This document shows positions 6,254 to 54,313 of a DNA stretch of 64,000 nt, piece after piece; positions within the stretch are counted from its first letter, which is position 1; every line of letters begins with the position of its first letter. The position numbers were made by a program, and so were the translations under genes. The DNA is from a virus: the IMG/VR virus record IMGVR_UViG_3300030503_000212, positions 43,764 to 107,763 of that record; one strand, 5' to 3'. The notes under the pieces were generated by a model. The model saw only the letters and a program-made list of their open reading frames with translations. It was not told where the DNA came from and did no database searches.

Positions 6254-6481
6254 ATGTACGCATTGCTTAACAAAGACAAAGAACTGTTCTGGTACAAAAT
6301 CCCAGGAATTGCTGGGGAGTTTCGATCTGTCTCAATATTCAATACTAGGGAAGATGCCATCCTTGCAGCCAAGGCGCTCTACATGGAAAACCTGCATATC
6401 GCAGAAATAAGCGTGGCAGTAACCATCAATCGAAACGTAGCAGTACAGTTGTTCGCGGATCTACCGCAGGAGGCTGTATGA
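6254..6481 (+). CDS. Hypothetical protein, 75 aa
   Basis: The ATG at 6254 follows GGAGGT; an upstream in-frame extension to 6143 lacks a ribosome-binding site and overlaps the previous gene. The protein (MYALLNKDKELFWYK) has an alpha/beta pattern. It overlaps the next start by ATGA. Function unknown. Confidence 0.55.
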   Translation: MYALLNKDKELFWYKIPGIAGEFRSVSIFNTREDAILAAKALYMENLHIAEISVAVTINRNVAVQLFADLPQEAV

Positions 6482-6948
6482 GCAAGTGGAGCTGGTGTGC
6501 AGCGGAAGACACGGATACACCATCGACAGATATATCGGCGGTGCTTGAGCGATTGGAGGAACAAGGCAATGAAGTTGTTTCCATTGTCATAACTGGCGAG
6601 CGCAACGGCAAGCACTACTATCGTATTTTCTACCGCGAACCCTTATCCCAAGACGCCCGCATTGTCGAGTTGGCGGCTGAAGTCGAAAAGCGAAAATACT
6701 TTCCGGCGCAGCTCCTGGTTGGAGGCGGACCCGTCGTGACACAAGTTGCTTTCGACGAAATGAAAGAACTTGCAAACGCCCGCATCGCAGAACTGGAGCG
6801 GGAGATCCGAGAGGCGCACCGTCTTTTGGATTACGCAGTTTGTTTGCATGTAAGAGATACAGATGAATGGGGCAATTGGTGTGAAACGAGAATGGAATGG
6901 ATAGATCGCGACGATAAGCGCAACGCAGAGAGGGCGACCGAACAATGA
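6478..6948 (+). CDS. Coiled-coil hypothetical protein, 156 aa
   Basis: Contains a central helix RIAELEREIREAHRLL (residues about 102-117) encoded by a 34-base segment nearly identical to one in the gene at 61574, 55 kb away. The N-terminal part has a short beta-pattern domain and the C-terminus is charged. Overlaps the next gene by ATGA. Function unknown. Confidence 0.5.
   Translation: MSKWSWCAAEDTDTPSTDISAVLERLEEQGNEVVSIVITGERNGKHYYRIFYREPLSQDARIVELAAEVEKRKYFPAQLLVGGGPVVTQVAFDEMKELANARIAELEREIREAHRLLDYAVCLHVRDTDEWGNWCETRMEWIDRDDKRNAERATEQ
6781..6814 (+). repeat. 34-bp dispersed repeat, copy 1
   Basis: Matches 61754-61787 at 33 of 34 positions. Both copies encode RIAELE(R/Q)EIRE coiled-coil helices in otherwise different genes, which suggests duplication or recombination between the two small-gene regions. 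Confidence 0.75.
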
Positions 6949-25754: not shown

Positions 25755-25976
25755 ATGGAACACACGAAACAGACCAAAATACCTTGTCCCCATTGTGGTC
25801 AGCCAATAACGGTACAGATCGTGGCTGAGGTGGAAACAGTAAAGGCTGACAGCAGGACGCAAGTGCATATCGACGATATTGCACCTATACGCTGCTCCAG
25901 CTGCAAAGAGTATGTACAGGCACAGATATCAAACCTCTATGTGGGCTACGAAGTGGTTCCCTTAGAAACAAACTGA
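25755..25976 (+). CDS. Zinc-ribbon microprotein, 73 aa
   Basis: CPHCGQPI (residues 10-17) and CSSCKEYV (46-53) form a two-knuckle zinc ribbon like those of rubredoxin-type or transcription-factor ribbons. Function unknown. Confidence 0.6.
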   Translation: MEHTKQTKIPCPHCGQPITVQIVAEVETVKADSRTQVHIDDIAPIRCSSCKEYVQAQISNLYVGYEVVPLETN

Positions 25977-25992: not shown

Positions 25993-26604
25993 ATGAATAA
26001 CGACGAACTGCGTCAACTCATTCCGAACTATCCGCGCATTGTCATCGAACGGCTACCCCGTACACAAGAGGTCGGCGGGATTGTGTTGACGGATGATAAC
26101 AACAAGCCGCTGCATGAGGGCATTGTTATCAGAACATGGGCTCCGTGGACTAAGCAGATATCTGCTAGTGCTCTAGATGCACAGGACTTGGCAGTCCTTA
26201 TTTCGACCATGAAAACTGAGCTGCGGTCTACAGGTGGTGAATACGACCACCTGTACCGAGAGGGTGTAAAACTTTGTCTTGATAACTTGGGTCGTGTCCG
26301 GAAATCTATAGCGATGGAGTCTCAAGTCAAGCCCGGCGATCATGTAGTGTTTCCCCACTGGGCTCCAAAGACTGATGACACTGCTGAGAAAATTGTGGTC
26401 GTCAATGAATTCGAGATCACGGGTAGCGTACATCCTGATCCTGAGACGTTACACAAGAAACTTATTTCAGTGCTGGTGGGATACACAGGAGATGATGCCG
26501 AGACTGTTGAATCTTTAGCACAAGCTGTTGAGGAGCATTTCGTCATCGTTCCCAAGCTCTCTATCACACGGTCGGGATCGGGTAATCGAGCAGACTGGGA
26601 ATAA
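25993..26604 (+). CDS. GroES-like co-chaperonin
   Basis: A 203-residue protein. PRIVIERLPRTQEVGGIVLTD corresponds to the GroES start (D-R-V-I-V-k-x-x-x-x-x-x-s-a-G-G-I-V-L), with the mobile loop at about residues 21-36; VKPGDHVVFPHWAP (about residues 113-126) corresponds to the VKVGDIVLF strand. Between them an extra ~50-residue helical insertion (LDAQDLAVLISTMKTELRS and on) replaces the short GroES turn, and ~50 residues follow. Phage co-chaperonins (T4 gp31 type) redirect host GroEL to fold capsid proteins. The fold assignment is likely; the insertion is unusual. Confidence 0.65.
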   Translation: MNNDELRQLIPNYPRIVIERLPRTQEVGGIVLTDDNNKPLHEGIVIRTWAPWTKQISASALDAQDLAVLISTMKTELRSTGGEYDHLYREGVKLCLDNLGRVRKSIAMESQVKPGDHVVFPHWAPKTDDTAEKIVVVNEFEITGSVHPDPETLHKKLISVLVGYTGDDAETVESLAQAVEEHFVIVPKLSITRSGSGNRADWE

Positions 26605-26825
26605 TGACACGGCAACAGGTCCTCCGTCGTTGGCGGTTCACACATGGTTTGTGTTGGCGGTGTGGTGAGATCAAAATATCTCCCTACAAGCGAACGTGCG
26701 GAGGATGTAGGGCCAGAGCTAAAAAGAATCTTGACAAGTGGAGAGCTAAACACGATGGGATGGGCGGCGAACGACAAAAAGACACGCGAGGATCTGGAAG
26801 TACAACTCAGTCTGACGCGACGTGA
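26604..26825 (+). CDS. Small zinc-finger protein, 73 aa
   Basis: CWRCGE (residues 17-20) and CGGC (32-35) 12 residues apart, in a strongly basic chain, as in small phage DNA- or RNA-binding zinc knuckles. Start overlaps the co-chaperonin stop. Its 3' third overlaps the next gene. Confidence 0.6.
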   Translation: MTRQQVLRRWRFTHGLCWRCGEIKISPYKRTCGGCRARAKKNLDKWRAKHDGMGGERQKDTRGSGSTTQSDAT

Positions 26826-26949
26826 GGGGTATAGGCTGTATCGTTTAATAGCTCAGGTGGAGCATGATGAAAAGCGCAGGGCATTAGAAAGTGCTTATGC
26901 CAAGCTCAATATTGAGTTAGACTCAATAGCATTCACTCTAAGCAGGTAA
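26755..26949 (+). CDS. Helical hypothetical protein, 64 aa
   Basis: ATG at 26755 with GGAGAG upstream; a longer frame from 26644 is a shadow of the preceding gene. The protein is a single long charged helix with heptad-like spacing (DLEVQLSLTRREGYRLYRL). It ends three bases before the terminase start, where a small terminase often sits, but it is too short to claim that. Confidence 0.5.
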   Translation: MGWAANDKKTREDLEVQLSLTRREGYRLYRLIAQVEHDEKRRALESAYAKLNIELDSIAFTLSR

Positions 26950-26952
26950 TTC

Positions 26953-28701
26953 ATGGCTGTTTCTGTAATCGTCAAGGGTAAGCAATCCGATCCTGTATTG
27001 GTGAAGGATCAATTCGAGGCACTACAGATATGTAGGCAGGCATGGGGCAATGAGGCTTTCATGGCCTATTTCATGTGGATTCTAGCCAAAGAGCCGGACC
27101 CACTGACAAATTCCCGCTACGTACCATTCAAACTCAATAGACTCCAGTCTAATCTGCATAACAATCTTTCCAATCAGAACTTACTGTTGAAAGGTCGTCA
27201 GCAGGGCGGCACTACGTTTTTCATGCTGGATAGATTATTGTTGCCCGCAATATCTCAGTACGGATGGCGCGGGCTATTTGTCAGTCAGAAACAGGCATAT
27301 GCTAATCAACACTTTCTCATTTTGGATCGTGCTCGTCGTACATTTGGAATGGCACGTCCAGGTGCCGGTGACGAAGTCAATCATTTAGCTGACGATTTAC
27401 GCAAGCATCTGTTAAAACGCAGATTAGCCAATCGTCGTGAGTTGTTGTTTGAAAATCTTGACTCATCAATTTTTGTAGACACAGCCGAAAACACTGAGGC
27501 CGGGCAAGGCTTCAGCATCAACGGATTTGTGGGATCTGAGTTCTCACGTTGGCCAAAAGATCCAGCCGAAACCTTGGCTAACATTCGCGGATCATTTGCT
27601 CCCAATGCAACACAGGATTTGGAATGTACTGCTAACGGCGCGTTTGGTCCGTTCTATGAGTTTGTTAATAAGGCACTGCATGGTGAGGGAATCTATAACC
27701 TGAACTTTTATGAGTGGTGGTGGACTGAGGAATATAAGCTCGATATAGATTCTGATGAAAAGAAAGCTCTCAGGAAAGAGCTGGCTGAGATCGATCAAAA
27801 ACTGTTGGCTGAAAAGGAAACGCAGGAAAAATCTGATCTGGAGATTTGGCAGCGAGAGGAGGCTATAGCCCGTGACAAGGGTCATCTAGCCTTGGCTCAA
27901 ATTAAGTGGCGTCGTCATCAGATCAAGGCCGATCCAAAACGGTTTCGTGAAAACTATCCGGAGGATGCTCAGAGTGCGTTTCTCATTGAGGGCAATAATT
28001 TCTTTGACAACGAACTGATGGGACGGCGCAAGGCTGAACTGGAGAACTGGAAACCATACAAGGTGGGTCGTAACTCTGAGGCGATCCTGTTCTGGAAACC
28101 ACGACCTAAGGTTCGTTACCTCATTGGTGCCGACGTTGCAGAGGGCATGTCTGCTAATGACAGCGGTACGGATCTTGACTACTGTGCGGCATGGGTTATC
28201 GACCTGGAGAGTGGAGAGCAGGTAGCCCAGTTCCGAGCTCGCGTACGACCCGATCAGTACGCAACCGATCTTGCCTATTTAGGGCACATGTACAACGATG
28301 CCATCATAGCGGTGGAGCGCAACTCGTTCGGTACAGCAGTTCTCTTATTCCTCGAAACAAATGAGGCATACCCGAATCTGTACCATCATCCGCACCGCGA
28401 GGACATTACCGGCACGGTTGGCGGCAAGCTGGGATTTCCTACGGACAAGTCCACGCGGCCCATCGCTCTCAGCTATCTCCAAAAGTGGACAGACGAAAAT
28501 CCTCATATGATTTGGAGTTATGAGTTTTGCAAAGAGGCCCTATCGTTCATCAGAACACCTACTGGACGGCCCCAGGCGGCTGCTGGTGCTCATGATGATA
28601 TCGTGGCGGCTGGTTGGGTGACTCACGGTGCCCGGGCGTTCCTACTTGGGTTCTGGGTGCCCATCCGTGATCCTAATGCTCAGGGTGAGGATGACGAGTA
28701 A
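26953..28701 (+). CDS. Terminase large subunit
   Basis: A 582-residue packaging motor. LKGRQQGGTT (residues about 79-88) is the degenerate Walker A seen in many phage terminases; INGFVGSEFSRW (about 177-188) supplies the Walker B carboxylates. The C-terminal RNase H-like nuclease begins YLIGADVAEG (about residue 394), followed by YCAAWVIDLESGE, IIAVERNSFG and, near the end, AAGAHDDIVAAG. It cuts concatemeric DNA and pumps it into the prohead. A small terminase is not recognised immediately upstream. Confidence 0.92.
   Translation: MAVSVIVKGKQSDPVLVKDQFEALQICRQAWGNEAFMAYFMWILAKEPDPLTNSRYVPFKLNRLQSNLHNNLSNQNLLLKGRQQGGTTFFMLDRLLLPAISQYGWRGLFVSQKQAYANQHFLILDRARRTFGMARPGAGDEVNHLADDLRKHLLKRRLANRRELLFENLDSSIFVDTAENTEAGQGFSINGFVGSEFSRWPKDPAETLANIRGSFAPNATQDLECTANGAFGPFYEFVNKALHGEGIYNLNFYEWWWTEEYKLDIDSDEKKALRKELAEIDQKLLAEKETQEKSDLEIWQREEAIARDKGHLALAQIKWRRHQIKADPKRFRENYPEDAQSAFLIEGNNFFDNELMGRRKAELENWKPYKVGRNSEAILFWKPRPKVRYLIGADVAEGMSANDSGTDLDYCAAWVIDLESGEQVAQFRARVRPDQYATDLAYLGHMYNDAIIAVERNSFGTAVLLFLETNEAYPNLYHHPHREDITGTVGGKLGFPTDKSTRPIALSYLQKWTDENPHMIWSYEFCKEALSFIRTPTGRPQAAAGAHDDIVAAGWVTHGARAFLLGFWVPIRDPNAQGEDDE
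27179..27189 (+). repeat. Intragenic dispersed motif (forward)
   Basis: ACTTACTGTTG, exact core, in codons Asn-Leu-Leu-Leu-Lys just before the terminase Walker A. Confidence 0.8.
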
Positions 28702-30897: not shown

Positions 30898-31509
30898 ATG
30901 CGTTTGCTTTTGGAGATCATCGCGATTGCTATTGCCATTTACATTACCTGGGATACAACCCGGGCCGAATGGCGCTGTTACCATTGTGGGTTCTGTACGA
31001 ACCAAGAGGATGAGGCGCAAGCTCATTTTGGTGATGACCAGAACGGAGAGCCATTGTGCGTGTTCTGGTATAGACAGAGTCCAGAGGAACGCCTCAAAGA
31101 ATTCCAGAGTGTGGTTCGAGAACTTGATGGCGAACGTGAGGAAGTTCGTACGCTTAGACAACAGAATGAAACGCTTGAATATCGTGTTGGGAATCTAGAG
31201 TTCGACATCCGTACTCGATTCCCAGGCTGCACGTGCCTACAGGATGTTTGGAACAAGATGGATTCGCTACGCGGCGAAGTGTTGTCAGCTCGTGAGCAGA
31301 TAACGTCAGATGAGTTCTGGAAACGCGCATGCCCATCAGATGAACAGCCGGAGTGGATCGCATGCGAGTTACGTGAGTATAGACAACTCGTGACGACATT
31401 GGCTGAGGTCTATCCCTACATCTCGGGAGGCAGACTCATCAGTCTCGATACGACGGCTGAGGGTGTCAAGAAAGCTGTTGATCGTCATTATGGTACTGGA
31501 CAGAACTAA
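30898..31509 (+). CDS. Membrane-anchored coiled-coil protein with zinc-finger-like motif, 203 aa
   Basis: N-terminal hydrophobic helix (residues about 4-20), then CYHCGFC (27-33) with later HF...C, a long coiled coil (about 60-100, ERLKEFQSVVRELDGEREE and on) and a C-terminal domain with CTCLQD. The combination of anchor, Cys cluster and coiled coil is unusual; function unknown. Confidence 0.55.
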   Translation: MRLLLEIIAIAIAIYITWDTTRAEWRCYHCGFCTNQEDEAQAHFGDDQNGEPLCVFWYRQSPEERLKEFQSVVRELDGEREEVRTLRQQNETLEYRVGNLEFDIRTRFPGCTCLQDVWNKMDSLRGEVLSAREQITSDEFWKRACPSDEQPEWIACELREYRQLVTTLAEVYPYISGGRLISLDTTAEGVKKAVDRHYGTGQN

Positions 31510-37791: not shown

Positions 37792-37857
37792 TATCCCACT
37801 ACTCTTACTTGTGAACTTTCTGTTGTAAGCAACACAAATTCGAGAAAGGTGGGATAC
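37791..37857 (+). other. Leader inverted repeat masking the capsid gene RBS
   Basis: GTATCCCAC (37791-37799) is perfectly complementary to GTGGGATAC (37849-37857), nine pairs. The second arm covers the region between the AAAGGTGGG ribosome-binding site and the ATG at 37864. The motif variant ACTTTCTGTTG (37815-37825) lies in the loop. In RNA this could hold back translation of the major capsid protein. Confidence 0.5.
37815..37825 (+). promoter_or_regulatory. Intergenic dispersed motif variant
   Basis: ACTTTCTGTTG within GAACTTTCTGTTGTAAG, between scaffold and capsid genes, central in the nine-pair inverted repeat. Confidence 0.65.
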
Positions 37858-37863
37858 CCCATC

Positions 37864-38871
37864 ATGAGCAAAGCAATGTTTATAGACCGCATGAGTGCGG
37901 CGGCTACGTACCTGGGGCCGGGCGTGATCGAAGTCGATTCGTATCAGACTGAGATTACCGACCTTGTACGCCGTCGTTTCCAGTTCGGACAGCGCATCAA
38001 GCAGACTCGGGCAACCGGCCAGCCGTCGCGTTATTTCGAGCAGTTCACCATTCCGCTCGGTGAATTTACCAACCCACGGCAGATCGTCAGCGAGGCAGCT
38101 CAGCCGTCGCGTGGTGAGCGTGCCCTGAACCTGAAGGCCATCGTTTCGGCGATGAATTTCAGCTTGTTCGATGTTGAGGTAACGCAGCAGCAGGGTGAGT
38201 TTCAGGGCTTGCAGGCCAAGGATCTTACGGACCTCGTGAACGGCGTCATGTACACACATGATCTCGCTCTCTGGGCCGGTAATGACACCGATCTGCTTGC
38301 GAACACCACCACACAGTATGTGGGCTGTTCGGGACAGATCCTGCGTGGCGCTGAGTTGGCTAACATCGGCAACGGTGTGACCACGATCACGCCTGTAACC
38401 GGTTCCGGCATCGTGTCGGGAGCTTCGTCCATCGTCGATCAGATCAAGACTTACATTGCATCCATGGTGGCACGTGAGGATTACGAGGTGCTGCCTACCA
38501 GCATCTATGCAAATCCTCTCACCTGCGATCAGTTGGATCGTGAGGCCAAGCTGCTCAACCTGAACGTGGATAAGGTTCAGATCACTCCCGGTCTGGTGGT
38601 TACGGCCATCATGACGCAGGCGGGTTTGATTCCGATCATCCCCGATGCATCGATCAAGGTGTTCCCCCAGGGCAACGGCACGTTCCTGCACACGTTCTTT
38701 GTCACGACAGACAACATGATCGAGTACCACTACCTGACTGATCCAAATCCCCGTGTATTCCAGCTGGGACTGACGGGTAACTTGGGTGGTTCGTTCTCCG
38801 TCGTGAAGTTCGGAGCGCCGGTTGTTAAGGGTGCTCCGTATGCTCACGGCGCACTAATCATGATTCGGTAA
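37864..38871 (+). CDS. Major capsid protein
   Basis: A 335-residue protein directly after the scaffold, with the size and position of an HK97-fold capsid subunit. Features: N-terminal MSKAMFIDRMSAAATYLGPGV, VRRRFQFGQRIKQTRATG, an E-loop-like region, and the C-terminal SVVKFGAPVVKGAPYAHGALI. Codon use is C-ending and uniform compared with the neighbours, as expected for a highly expressed gene. The ATG at 37864 is preferred to a GTG at 37849. The fold is inferred from order and size. Confidence 0.8.
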   Translation: MSKAMFIDRMSAAATYLGPGVIEVDSYQTEITDLVRRRFQFGQRIKQTRATGQPSRYFEQFTIPLGEFTNPRQIVSEAAQPSRGERALNLKAIVSAMNFSLFDVEVTQQQGEFQGLQAKDLTDLVNGVMYTHDLALWAGNDTDLLANTTTQYVGCSGQILRGAELANIGNGVTTITPVTGSGIVSGASSIVDQIKTYIASMVAREDYEVLPTSIYANPLTCDQLDREAKLLNLNVDKVQITPGLVVTAIMTQAGLIPIIPDASIKVFPQGNGTFLHTFFVTTDNMIEYHYLTDPNPRVFQLGLTGNLGGSFSVVKFGAPVVKGAPYAHGALIMIR

Positions 38872-41300: not shown

Positions 41301-41778
41301 GCCTATTTCTATTGCAGATCCGGTGACTATACCCGCAGTGATGAGCAACAAAAAGTTCTACAACCAGAATTTTAAAGGTGCGGATCTCAAGAAACGAGAT
41401 TTGCGCCGGTCAACGTTCATGTACTGCACATTCGATGAGTGTGACATGACTGAAACAGACTGCACGGGATGCGAGTTTTTCGGCTCTAGTTTCAGACAGA
41501 CGAATTGTCACCACACGAATTTCAAAGATGCCAAGTTGCACGCAACACTCTTTGAGCCTAGCGATTGTTACGGTATGACGATCACGCTGACATGCCATAC
41601 GTTTCAGGACATGAAAATTGCTCGTGTTTGGTGGGATGGTCTGATGTTCTTTCTGTGCGGCCTCTTGATTCCGCCACGGGATGCTGAGGGGTTCGATCCG
41701 CGTGATGCAGTGATTTCCGCTTTGGGTCCTGAGTATTTCGTTCGTAACTCTGAAAAGTTCAAAGCAAGGAATTACTAA
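41293..41778 (+). CDS. Pentapeptide-repeat protein
   Basis: A 161-residue protein. Residues about 15-80 contain pentapeptide repeats of the A(D/N)LXX type: NFKGADLKKRDLRRSTFMYC, TFDECDMTETDCTGCEFFG and SSFRQTNCHHTNFKDAKLHA, with a Phe or Leu every fifth residue. This forms a right-handed quadrilateral helix; some such proteins mimic DNA and protect gyrase. Being within the neck-tail cluster is unusual. The rest has a hydrophobic stretch (GLMFFLCGLLIPP). Confidence 0.7.
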   Translation: MVEPISIADPVTIPAVMSNKKFYNQNFKGADLKKRDLRRSTFMYCTFDECDMTETDCTGCEFFGSSFRQTNCHHTNFKDAKLHATLFEPSDCYGMTITLTCHTFQDMKIARVWWDGLMFFLCGLLIPPRDAEGFDPRDAVISALGPEYFVRNSEKFKARNY

Positions 41779-42353
41779 TGCCCAACCCGACCCAGCAGAT
41801 GCGCGACATGATCGACACATACTATGAGTATGTGAAAGGTCGTATCGTCAATGGTGATCCTGCTGGGAGCGGTTTGCCGCCGATCAACCCAGAACGCCAG
41901 TTTGGAGGCATTATCCAAGCTGAGGCATGGCCTCCTACAGACATCATCCTGGGTGGTCTGTATCTTACGATCCTCCAGATGACACCCAATATTCGGTTTG
42001 GGACACGCGGTAATCCCTATTACACAGTAGTTAGTCAGTGGCTATGGGCTAACCAGGGAACGGATTTGACGGCGACGCAGCAGGGAGCAAACCGGGGCAA
42101 TCGATTCCCTGACGACGTGGCAATTCGGAATGAGCTCTTGCAGGCAAATTTTCCGTTGTTCACAGCGCTAAACTCAATTTCTGTTGATCCAGTTTCAGGT
42201 GATATCATCATGACGCCATACAGTCCTACACAAGTATGTCGTTGGACAGCATTAGCCTTTGGGCCGAAAACGTCTGGTACTGATGATTCGGGTGTTCTTT
42301 ACGGTGCGGCGGCTGTGGATGTTAGTACATTCCAGCAACCCTTGACTCAGTAA
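41778..42353 (+). CDS. Tail terminator-like protein, tentative
   Basis: A 191-residue protein immediately before the tail tube gene, the usual site of the tail terminator that stops tube growth. Contains an RFGTRGNPYYTVVSQWLW segment. No strong family match from reading; assignment depends on gene order. Its start overlaps the pentapeptide stop (TAATG). Confidence 0.5.
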   Translation: MPNPTQQMRDMIDTYYEYVKGRIVNGDPAGSGLPPINPERQFGGIIQAEAWPPTDIILGGLYLTILQMTPNIRFGTRGNPYYTVVSQWLWANQGTDLTATQQGANRGNRFPDDVAIRNELLQANFPLFTALNSISVDPVSGDIIMTPYSPTQVCRWTALAFGPKTSGTDDSGVLYGAAAVDVSTFQQPLTQ

Positions 42354-52900: not shown

Positions 52901-54313
52901 GGAGATCAGCGTAACATTTACGGAATCGAAGTTAGGGCAACAGACGACGCAACGATCCTGTTCCAACAGTCGGCTAATGACACGACCGATATGTATTTCA
53001 ATCTGCAACAGTATTTGCCGGAGTTGGCACTTATTGCTGAGAACACATCGGCGTTTACCCCAACCGGAACATTCTTGCGTGGATATACCGCACGATTCTT
53101 TAATCATCAGTGGCTGTACTCTGTGCCGACAGAGATTTATATCCCACCACCACCTGCACCTGAGCTTAGTATCGGTGTGCGGTTCTCCCAGATGTTGCAG
53201 ATCAATTCAGATATCATTACGCGTGACGATATTGCTCAACAGACTTTGGAACTTTCTTTTGACAACTTTGCATCAGTTTGGCAGACAGTTCAGAGCTCCG
53301 GCCAGCCGGGATCGTGGGCAATCACTGTACCGAGTACGGGCGATGTATGGGCTCAGTCGTATCGCAATGATCTGTTGGGATCTGGTGCAATGTCTGCTGT
53401 CCTGCATATTCCCCAAGGCCAGCTGATTGCAAGTGATTACTTGGCAACACAGGGATCTGTACCACCTGTTGTAACGAACAACGTCAATTCGCTGTTCTCA
53501 TATTTTGCAACGAGCGGTTCACTTACTATTGTCTCGTTGCCATTTGGTATTTCGTTTCCCAACGGTGCTGTGTCTGAGTTGCCATCTGTGACGGGCATAT
53601 ACACCACAGCCATCGGAGCTACAGGTACAGGATTGCAGCCGTCCACGGTGTATAACTATTTCCCGGCGATTGCTAATGTATTGACGGCTGACGAAACGGT
53701 AGAAATCAATGGACTGTATGCAACGGTTGCACCTACTGTCATCCAAGCTCTTATAGGCGATGGGATGGTCGTTCTGTCAAATGGGGCGTTGCAGGCGACG
53801 ACAGCGGCATCAGGTAGCAGTGGAGGCACATCGGGCGGCGGCAGCTATCACCCGGGTACAGGTGGGAGTGGTGCCTGCACTGAGGAGTCAGAACTAATTA
53901 CGATGGCCGATGGTAGTGATCGGCGCGGCGGCGACTTGATGGCAGGTCATCTCCTCAAAGGACCAAAAACTGTTGCGGGCAAGATTCGTACGATCACTAA
54001 GGTTCCACATACGCCTTTGTTTCTGATTACAACAGTAACTGGGCGACATGTTAAAGCATCAGAATCTCACGCATTCAAAATCAACAAGCGATGGGCGTCT
54101 GTAGGCGAGATGATCGAACGTTTTGCCGAGGGCGAAATATTGACTGCAACTACTGTTGACGGAGATGAGCAGATACTTTCTATTGATTATGCCGGATCTG
54201 GTACGGTAGTATGCCTCAAATTAGTAAAGGGTCAACACGTCTATTATGCAGGTGGATTTGAATCGCACAATGCTGTGTACAAGCCCGCAATACCATCATC
54301 GGAGACTGCGTAA
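49958..54313 (+). CDS. Tail-tip/hub protein with C-terminal Hint domain
   Basis: A 1451-residue protein overlapping the tape measure stop (TAATG). N-terminal region is a distal-tail/hub-like beta domain (IVKNDNGTFDYSNYVDWTTL); a lectin-like insert follows (about residues 265-435, EDDFTQDSMNTQNWTLNDPQ); then further beta domains to about 1290. After a Gly/Ser linker, residues 1307-1438 resemble a Hint (intein/hedgehog) domain: Cys1307 at CTEESELITMADGS, KASESHAFKI with the block-B-like His, RWASVGEMIERFAEGE, and the end VYYAGGFESHN. Thirteen residues (AVYKPAIPSSETA) remain after His-Asn. Self-cleavage is inferred. Confidence 0.75.
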   Translation: MLRMIVKNDNGTFDYSNYVDWTTLQITSQLSVPTQMQVVFYQYDQNFIPPFERCYVQIWSDKDGKTLFTGFVAATPDIQFVAVGSSQQQFFKYSVTCTSDEYLLNFKSPPYIPAIINQTQGQILAQLAEILAPGFYDTSLIQPGFLVPYYTWDPTQTWSMVAKTFADSARYFYTCKDKKIVYAPYGQGDLGISYDEVNTPSTRWNAAKLQTTVLQVPTVNDVLVVGDVEAGNSHTDYFIGDGFTGEFPLTYATFQSRSALLLEDDFTQDSMNTQNWTLNDPQNNFNFSVGALNLVSPATGPASTGQLIANNGVELAGGMEFQHGEVQFNDVSSGEIGGLYFDASVIDQFCAFEISTPGSVTLTASGAGGIAMQPSLSGALLGPQIISQPNHHYVLNTKIQCPSETRFQQVFATKDGTYFAGQAQSMFGNVTFSIEDVDIGATYNQSLTGIYNDPVSTTTVFTASGVLLPAYAAYALIKNGRQNLTLNYCLLSKTPAGSLSIAGSTSGAFLPTGAILPFTGPESEYAGAVSPYLSGQIVLSSGITGSLAAPTPLYPANQHTLGFGLDEQDASVIQGANNNNVDTLGFYLTTTPAAGSRVAFTSNESQRAVARVVDMVDVDYEAGLVGDDGHRSAIVSNMSPLPRTSEDCDAACQAYIYDREQIFYNGTYTAESDLFQQDINDFPYYPFAGRNININCPARNIVDTDYLVTQAVLSVLEAGSETLSWAFTFGADTRTEKLLSAFTPSQPTNILTTIGGGSTSQQAGDTANIPLPQALAQVVTGSYLPDLIDVSAYAIVDTSVYITVNSPLVAAVPPVSVTYPVAPGGPGFPYAPPIISRPIQAMSLARSQAQAIVGTWSPVSGSGGVGVVSQPVQRIGPAQSTPPAPPIIAAPGQTYVEVRLSDQNWGQNSANLIARYQVSSFTLLKNNYDQTWYMRLVQFDENDNPYMFSRRTKVIRVVYPFRPTSPTIVFATTADIQLDFSGDQRNIYGIEVRATDDATILFQQSANDTTDMYFNLQQYLPELALIAENTSAFTPTGTFLRGYTARFFNHQWLYSVPTEIYIPPPPAPELSIGVRFSQMLQINSDIITRDDIAQQTLELSFDNFASVWQTVQSSGQPGSWAITVPSTGDVWAQSYRNDLLGSGAMSAVLHIPQGQLIASDYLATQGSVPPVVTNNVNSLFSYFATSGSLTIVSLPFGISFPNGAVSELPSVTGIYTTAIGATGTGLQPSTVYNYFPAIANVLTADETVEINGLYATVAPTVIQALIGDGMVVLSNGALQATTAASGSSGGTSGGGSYHPGTGGSGACTEESELITMADGSDRRGGDLMAGHLLKGPKTVAGKIRTITKVPHTPLFLITTVTGRHVKASESHAFKINKRWASVGEMIERFAEGEILTATTVDGDEQILSIDYAGSGTVVCLKLVKGQHVYYAGGFESHNAVYKPAIPSSETA

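Follow-up and report, generated by a model that had tools for sequence, protein, structure and literature searches.

The locus studied here raises the question of whether a phage gene lying ahead of the terminase encodes a GroES-type co-chaperonin and what the additional helical segment inside it may do. The DNA that we analysed (the window) is a stretch of 64,000 nucleotides from a virus record of 107,763 bases, which is classed as linear. Positions 25993-26604 of the plus strand form an ATG-started ORF of 203 aa, with the same coordinates as in the original prediction. The features to which we refer in the following are:

25755..25976, plus strand: zinc-ribbon (CpXC-like) ORF just upstream (CpXC 25.5 bits against a cut-off of 25.4; a zinc-ribbon-like ORF is likewise placed in the relatives).
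25993..26604, plus strand: probable Cpn10/GroES-type co-chaperonin gene, 203 aa (ORF, Pfam Cpn10, PHROG 3188 and predicted fold).
26035..26094, plus strand: predicted first barrel strand (residues 15-20) and mobile loop with IVL (I30 V31 L32), from alignment and model.
26119..26163, plus strand: predicted second strand, residues 43-57 (GIVIRTWAPWTKQIS), running into the roof hairpin (model strands 40-47 and 52-57; alignment).
26164..26304, plus strand: roof-loop insertion, residues 58-104, with predicted helices 63-79 and 85-97 (alignment, model and counts).
26326..26433, plus strand: remaining barrel, residues 112-147, including VKPGDHVVFPHWAP (model strands 117-121, 134-138 and 144-146; invariant G115).
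26434..26601, plus strand: C-terminal extension, residues 148-203, with a predicted helical hairpin and a low-confidence tail (alignment, model and four of four family members).
26604..26825, plus strand: small zinc-ribbon-like ORF, its ATG overlapping the co-chaperonin stop (weak Pfam zinc-ribbon matches below the cut-off).
26644-26949: alternative small ORF that overlaps 26604..26825 (ORF list).
26953..28701, plus strand: terminase large subunit, 582 aa, in one piece (PHROG terminase match, tblastn to phage TerLs, syntenic homologues).

The family profiles gave a Pfam Cpn10 (PF00166) match of 26.6 bits, above the curated cut-off of 21.1. This match was split into two stretches, of which residues 10-47 were the better one. 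PHROG 3188 ('co-chaperonin GroES') matched the protein with an E-value of 1.3e-4. None of the NCBIfam GroES models came above its cut-off (the best reached 20.8 against 130 bits) so that the protein does not count as a GroES equivalog. When the phage record was searched in six frames with the Cpn10 profile, the co-chaperonin gene was missed (zero of one record at E ≤ 0.001), and phmmer found no match to the protein in the PDB up to E 10. Both relatives that we scanned against the Cpn10 profile were above the cut-off: the match of L031 covers profile positions 2-86 of 93 with 36.2 bits and that of L040 positions 2-86 with 27.6 bits. Judged by sequence, the Cpn10 match of the 203-aa protein is weak when taken alone and it is the relatives that settle its identity.

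For the protein itself we detected no close homologues in the phage records up to E 1 (a tail-fibre match at E 5 is unrelated), and no homologues in the viral contigs or in the genome contigs. With the terminase as bait nothing was found in the viral contigs. L031 was reached by a DNA pattern on the GDHVVFPHW stretch, L040 by a search with the L031 protein and L042 by an alignment of the three. The pattern 'GDxVxFPxW' returned 20 stretches, two of which are GroES-like (L031 and L037) while the other 18 belong to a different protein family. We also searched with two DNA patterns that described a GroES carrying a roof as large as the present one; they returned 7 and 2 stretches, none of which was a GroES (the frames of the first motif were read by eye), and the comparison of the four-member family alignment with the genome contigs gave 167 stretches without a relative.

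All three relatives are syntenic with the window: a zinc-ribbon-like ORF is followed by the co-chaperonin and then by the terminase, and a glycosyltransferase lies upstream in L040 and L042, the two that reach far enough. L040 sits in a phage record of 117,450 bases, which is a sister phage across much of the window; the likely capsid proteins of the two show 54% identity over 332 residues. The co-chaperonins of the sister phages resemble the 203-aa protein in gene order, in the C-terminal extension and in the motifs 'HEG[IV]V' and 'HV[LV]FPHWA', but they lack the roof insertion. The sister phages also differ from the window in having the terminase large subunit in two pieces (L031 1042-3151, L040 6982-9074, L042 7036-8844), cut approximately at the link of the ATPase and nuclease parts. 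Between the pieces we observed a gap of 15 bases with ORFs in the same frame in L042, and about 300-400 bases of differing sequence in L031 and L040; the second piece of L040 shows an apparent frameshift. Rfam found nothing in L031 and L040.

The structure of the protein was predicted with AlphaFold2. Given the sequence alone, the program returned a model of low quality (pLDDT 43.5). When we supplied 18 aligned sequences (the family's 4 members plus 14 further viral GroES proteins), the model reached a mean pLDDT of 72 and a pTM of 0.55. Its strands cover residues 15-20, 40-47, 52-57, 103-108, 117-121, 134-138 and 144-146, helices 63-79 and 85-97 lie within the roof hairpin, and a C-terminal helical hairpin (150-165 and 169-182) is confident, with a low-confidence tail beyond it. 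Foldseek against the PDB placed Cpn10/GroES chains at ranks 1-19 (E about 1e-3 to 3e-2). VIA-align placed them at ranks 1-13 with Z 7.2-8.9 over model residues 5-150, the best match being a Cpn10 chain with Z 8.9 and an rmsd of 3.2 over 85 residues. Named matches in the viral model library were mostly phage GroES proteins. We also considered quinone oxidoreductases, which contain a GroES-like barrel and reached a VIA-align Z of up to 6.7; they rank under the Cpn10 chains and the protein has no space for a nucleotide-binding domain. A GroES-type barrel is thus supported by the model, though partly guided by the alignment: because the alignment contains ordinary GroES proteins, the barrel was partly taught to the model.

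To place the additional residues we measured the spacing between the two glycines G43 and G115. The 203-aa protein has 72 residues between them, compared to 27 in all three relatives and 15-25 in all 14 other viral GroES proteins. The latter are those chosen for the alignment, namely P0004 and 13 of the 27 viral GroES loci. The insertion thus amounts to about 45 extra residues relative to the three relatives and is found in one of the four family members. It falls between model strands 52-57 and 103-108 and aligns with the roof loop of GroES. The codon bias of the insertion is 0.13 bits per codon in frame, with 0.13-0.16 in the flanks, and its G+C is equal to that of the flanks; judged by this unchanged codon bias, it resembles ordinary coding sequence. 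Read from the sequence, the hydrophobic residues of the predicted helices are regularly spaced (L66, L69/I70, M73, L77). We found no sign that the C-terminal hairpin was duplicated to give the insertion (Smith-Waterman scores were below the shuffled mean in four of four comparisons) and no source in the rest of the genome, where the best other short matches had 11-16 bases. It has no match in Pfam, and no phage co-chaperonin with such a roof insertion was found in the titles and abstract starts of the open-licence literature.

The second addition lies at the C-terminus. Past the barrel we counted 57 residues in the 203-aa protein, 46-52 in the three relatives and 1-10 in the 14 other viral GroES proteins. 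The extension is weakly but consistently similar to that of the relatives (shuffle p 0.007-0.039, three of three), and this part alone has no Cpn10 match in Pfam. From the sequences compared, the helical extension at the C-terminus belongs to the whole family (four of four members); it is older than the insertion and a separate event. As a trait of longer standing in this phage group, the hairpin would have an accessory contact role.

With these results the structural part of the original prediction was largely confirmed. It had described a co-chaperonin with a mobile loop, in agreement with the Pfam match, the IVL tripeptide and the predicted barrel. It had further claimed a helical insertion of about 50 residues, which corresponds to the extra residues with their two predicted helices in the roof hairpin, and about 50 residues after the barrel, where we find the predicted hairpin and tail. 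The gene was said to lie just before the terminase; 348 bases with one or two small ORFs separate the two. The original prediction hinged on a GroES-type barrel, and structure prediction did yield one, with Cpn10 chains as the best solved matches to the model. We consider it quite probable that the protein is a co-chaperonin of the Cpn10/GroES superfamily and that its insertion is located at the roof.

Compared with Cpn10/GroES (PF00166) in general, the protein shares the barrel, the IVL mobile loop, the position of the roof hairpin and the GD strand motif, and differs by the insertion and the residues after the barrel. T4 gp31 is thought to be suited to its large substrate partly through having none of the roof loops found in the GroES dome. 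Like the 203-aa protein, gp31 is phage-encoded and has the same fold (1g31; VIA-align Z 7.6 over 84 residues). It increases the chamber by 8% via longer mobile loops and has no roof loops, and its substrate gp23 has 56 kDa (PMC6318259). The 203-aa protein instead shows an enlarged roof, with 72 residues between the anchors, and an ordinary mobile loop, so that the features typical of gp31 were not found in it.

Another long phage protein is gp096 of Cellulophaga phage phi18:3 (PHROG 13932), which has 200 aa and likewise lies ahead of a small ORF and TerL. However, its Cpn10 match is located in the second half (residues 117-198), the first half appears by eye to be another GroES-like unit, and it has no comparable roof insertion. 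Phage phi18:3 (L079) has two co-chaperonin genes, one of 84 aa (31108-31362) and the one of 200 aa before the terminase (41458-42060). We also compared the protein with Cpn20 of plants and apicomplexans, a co-chaperonin of similar size (about 20 kDa) that consists of two linked Cpn10 domains (PMC3542282). The 203-aa protein was rejected as such a double: there is one barrel (residues 5-150) and the C-terminal part is predicted to be helical. The kind of protein is already well known, with E. coli GroES matching 90 of 50,697 phage records at E ≤ 0.01; what is new is a single-domain Cpn10 with an enlarged roof and a family-wide C-terminal helical hairpin. The place just ahead of the terminase is a recurrent one, as it is also occupied by a co-chaperonin in Xanthomonas phage PBR31 and in Cellulophaga phage phi18:3. 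In Shewanella phage 1/44 and Vibrio phage 1.049.O the co-chaperonin lies among the tail genes.

We then looked at the mobile loop for indications of the partner. The GroEL-contact tripeptide is IVL in the 203-aa protein, in L031 and in L040, and IIL in L042. The context GGIVLT is that of the E. coli GroES sequence compared; I25 of GroES contacts GroEL (PMC5575113). The loop has an ordinary length and residues 26-34 show a pLDDT below 50, as expected for a mobile loop. A search for the chaperonin Cpn60 found none in the four phage records, two of which are short fragments and the other two of unstated completeness, and detected it in 14 of 14 control genomes. Since the tripeptide is kept and no chaperonin was found in these four records, the partner is probably the GroEL of the host, capped as T4 gp31 does. 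We infer that a heptameric lid would dock on host GroEL via the IVL mobile loop and would help to fold phage structural proteins encoded by the adjacent late genes.

Elsewhere in the window and in the sister phages we noted several other features. A 340-aa protein of about 37 kDa (37849-38871) is the likely major capsid protein from its position between the portal and the head-tail adaptor; it has no family match of its own. The C-terminal part of a 1451-aa tail-region protein (53810-54313) appears by eye to be a Hint/intein-type module, from CTEESELITMADG to ESHN, and Pfam returned nothing for it at E ≤ 0.05. Near the co-chaperonin of the sister phages we observed a 6-pyruvoyl-tetrahydropterin-synthase-like gene (101.7 bits in L040) and a radical-SAM-like gene, at 1520-2032 and 4838-5515 in L040 and at 2074-2454 and 4919-5629 in L042. 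The pair may serve 7-deazaguanine synthesis; the window lacks the radical-SAM-like gene at the corresponding position. Between co-chaperonin and terminase L042 carries a Tlde1-domain gene (6463-6822; 44.6 bits, cut-off 30.1).

There are several possible explanations for the roof helices. The original prediction had proposed that the insertion could alter the choice of GroEL or give a large capsid protein a wider cage; gp31 does the latter for gp23 in T4. The gene does lie within the head and packaging region, and with gp31 there is a known case of a cage enlarged by a phage co-chaperonin (PMC6318259). However, the insertion is located in the roof loop at the apex of the dome and not in the wall, and gp31 gains its volume by other means. 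Assuming standard protein density we estimated that 7 × 47 residues have about 36 kDa and occupy about 44,000 cubic angstroms. Turned inward, the insertions would fill about one fifth of the 194,000 cubic-angstrom chamber; turned outward, they would form a crown. In neither case would the cage become wider. Furthermore the likely capsid protein has only 340 aa (about 37 kDa), compared to 56 kDa for gp23, and thus there is no obvious need of a bigger chamber. For a changed GroEL choice we found no positive evidence, the length of the mobile loop, its tripeptide and the GGIVLT context all being ordinary. Neither part of this proposal is supported and we regard it as highly improbable. A crown or plug fits better: the seven insertions would come together at the dome top, as an external crown or as a plug over the opening, and would alter substrate retention or provide a docking site and not widen the chamber. 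This role is less certain than the assignment as a co-chaperonin.

The insertion could also be neutral, that is, a lineage-specific expansion of a loop tolerated in an ordinary phage GroES and without a role of its own. As none of the three close relatives carries the roof helices, conservation lends no support to a function and the neutral expansion is a serious rival, which we judge to be a real possibility, if on balance unlikely. It would agree with the lack of likeness to Pfam families or to other parts of the genome and with the varying length of the roof loop across viral GroES proteins (15-25 residues, measured likewise). On the other hand, the insertion is long and has a coding bias like its flanks, and two predicted helices with regular hydrophobic spacing represent more order than a random loop needs. 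Very unlikely, in our view, is a GroES-derived barrel that has lost its function with GroEL and takes part in head assembly or packaging itself, e.g. as a scaffold next to the terminase. The terminase-adjacent place in other phages, the weak resemblance to cellular GroES (all NCBIfam GroES models stay under their cut-offs) and a weak PHROG match (E 7.9e-4) of the GroES-like protein L037 to a family named 'head morphogenesis' would be compatible with it, but the GroEL-contact tripeptide is kept in four of four family members and the low-confidence loop is what the disordered loop of free GroES would give.

Returning to the crown or plug at the dome top, its most specific form remains tentative and rather unlikely: each subunit of a heptamer would contribute two helices to a phage-specific crown of fourteen, which would shut the opening of the dome or recruit an assembly factor of the phage, e.g. 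the adjacently encoded packaging machinery. If the crown does recruit the packaging machinery, folding and head assembly would be physically coupled. The change of the roof is opposite to that of gp31 and occurs in the same place, and with the sister phages that lack the insertion as natural controls it could be used to test the purpose of the GroES dome opening.
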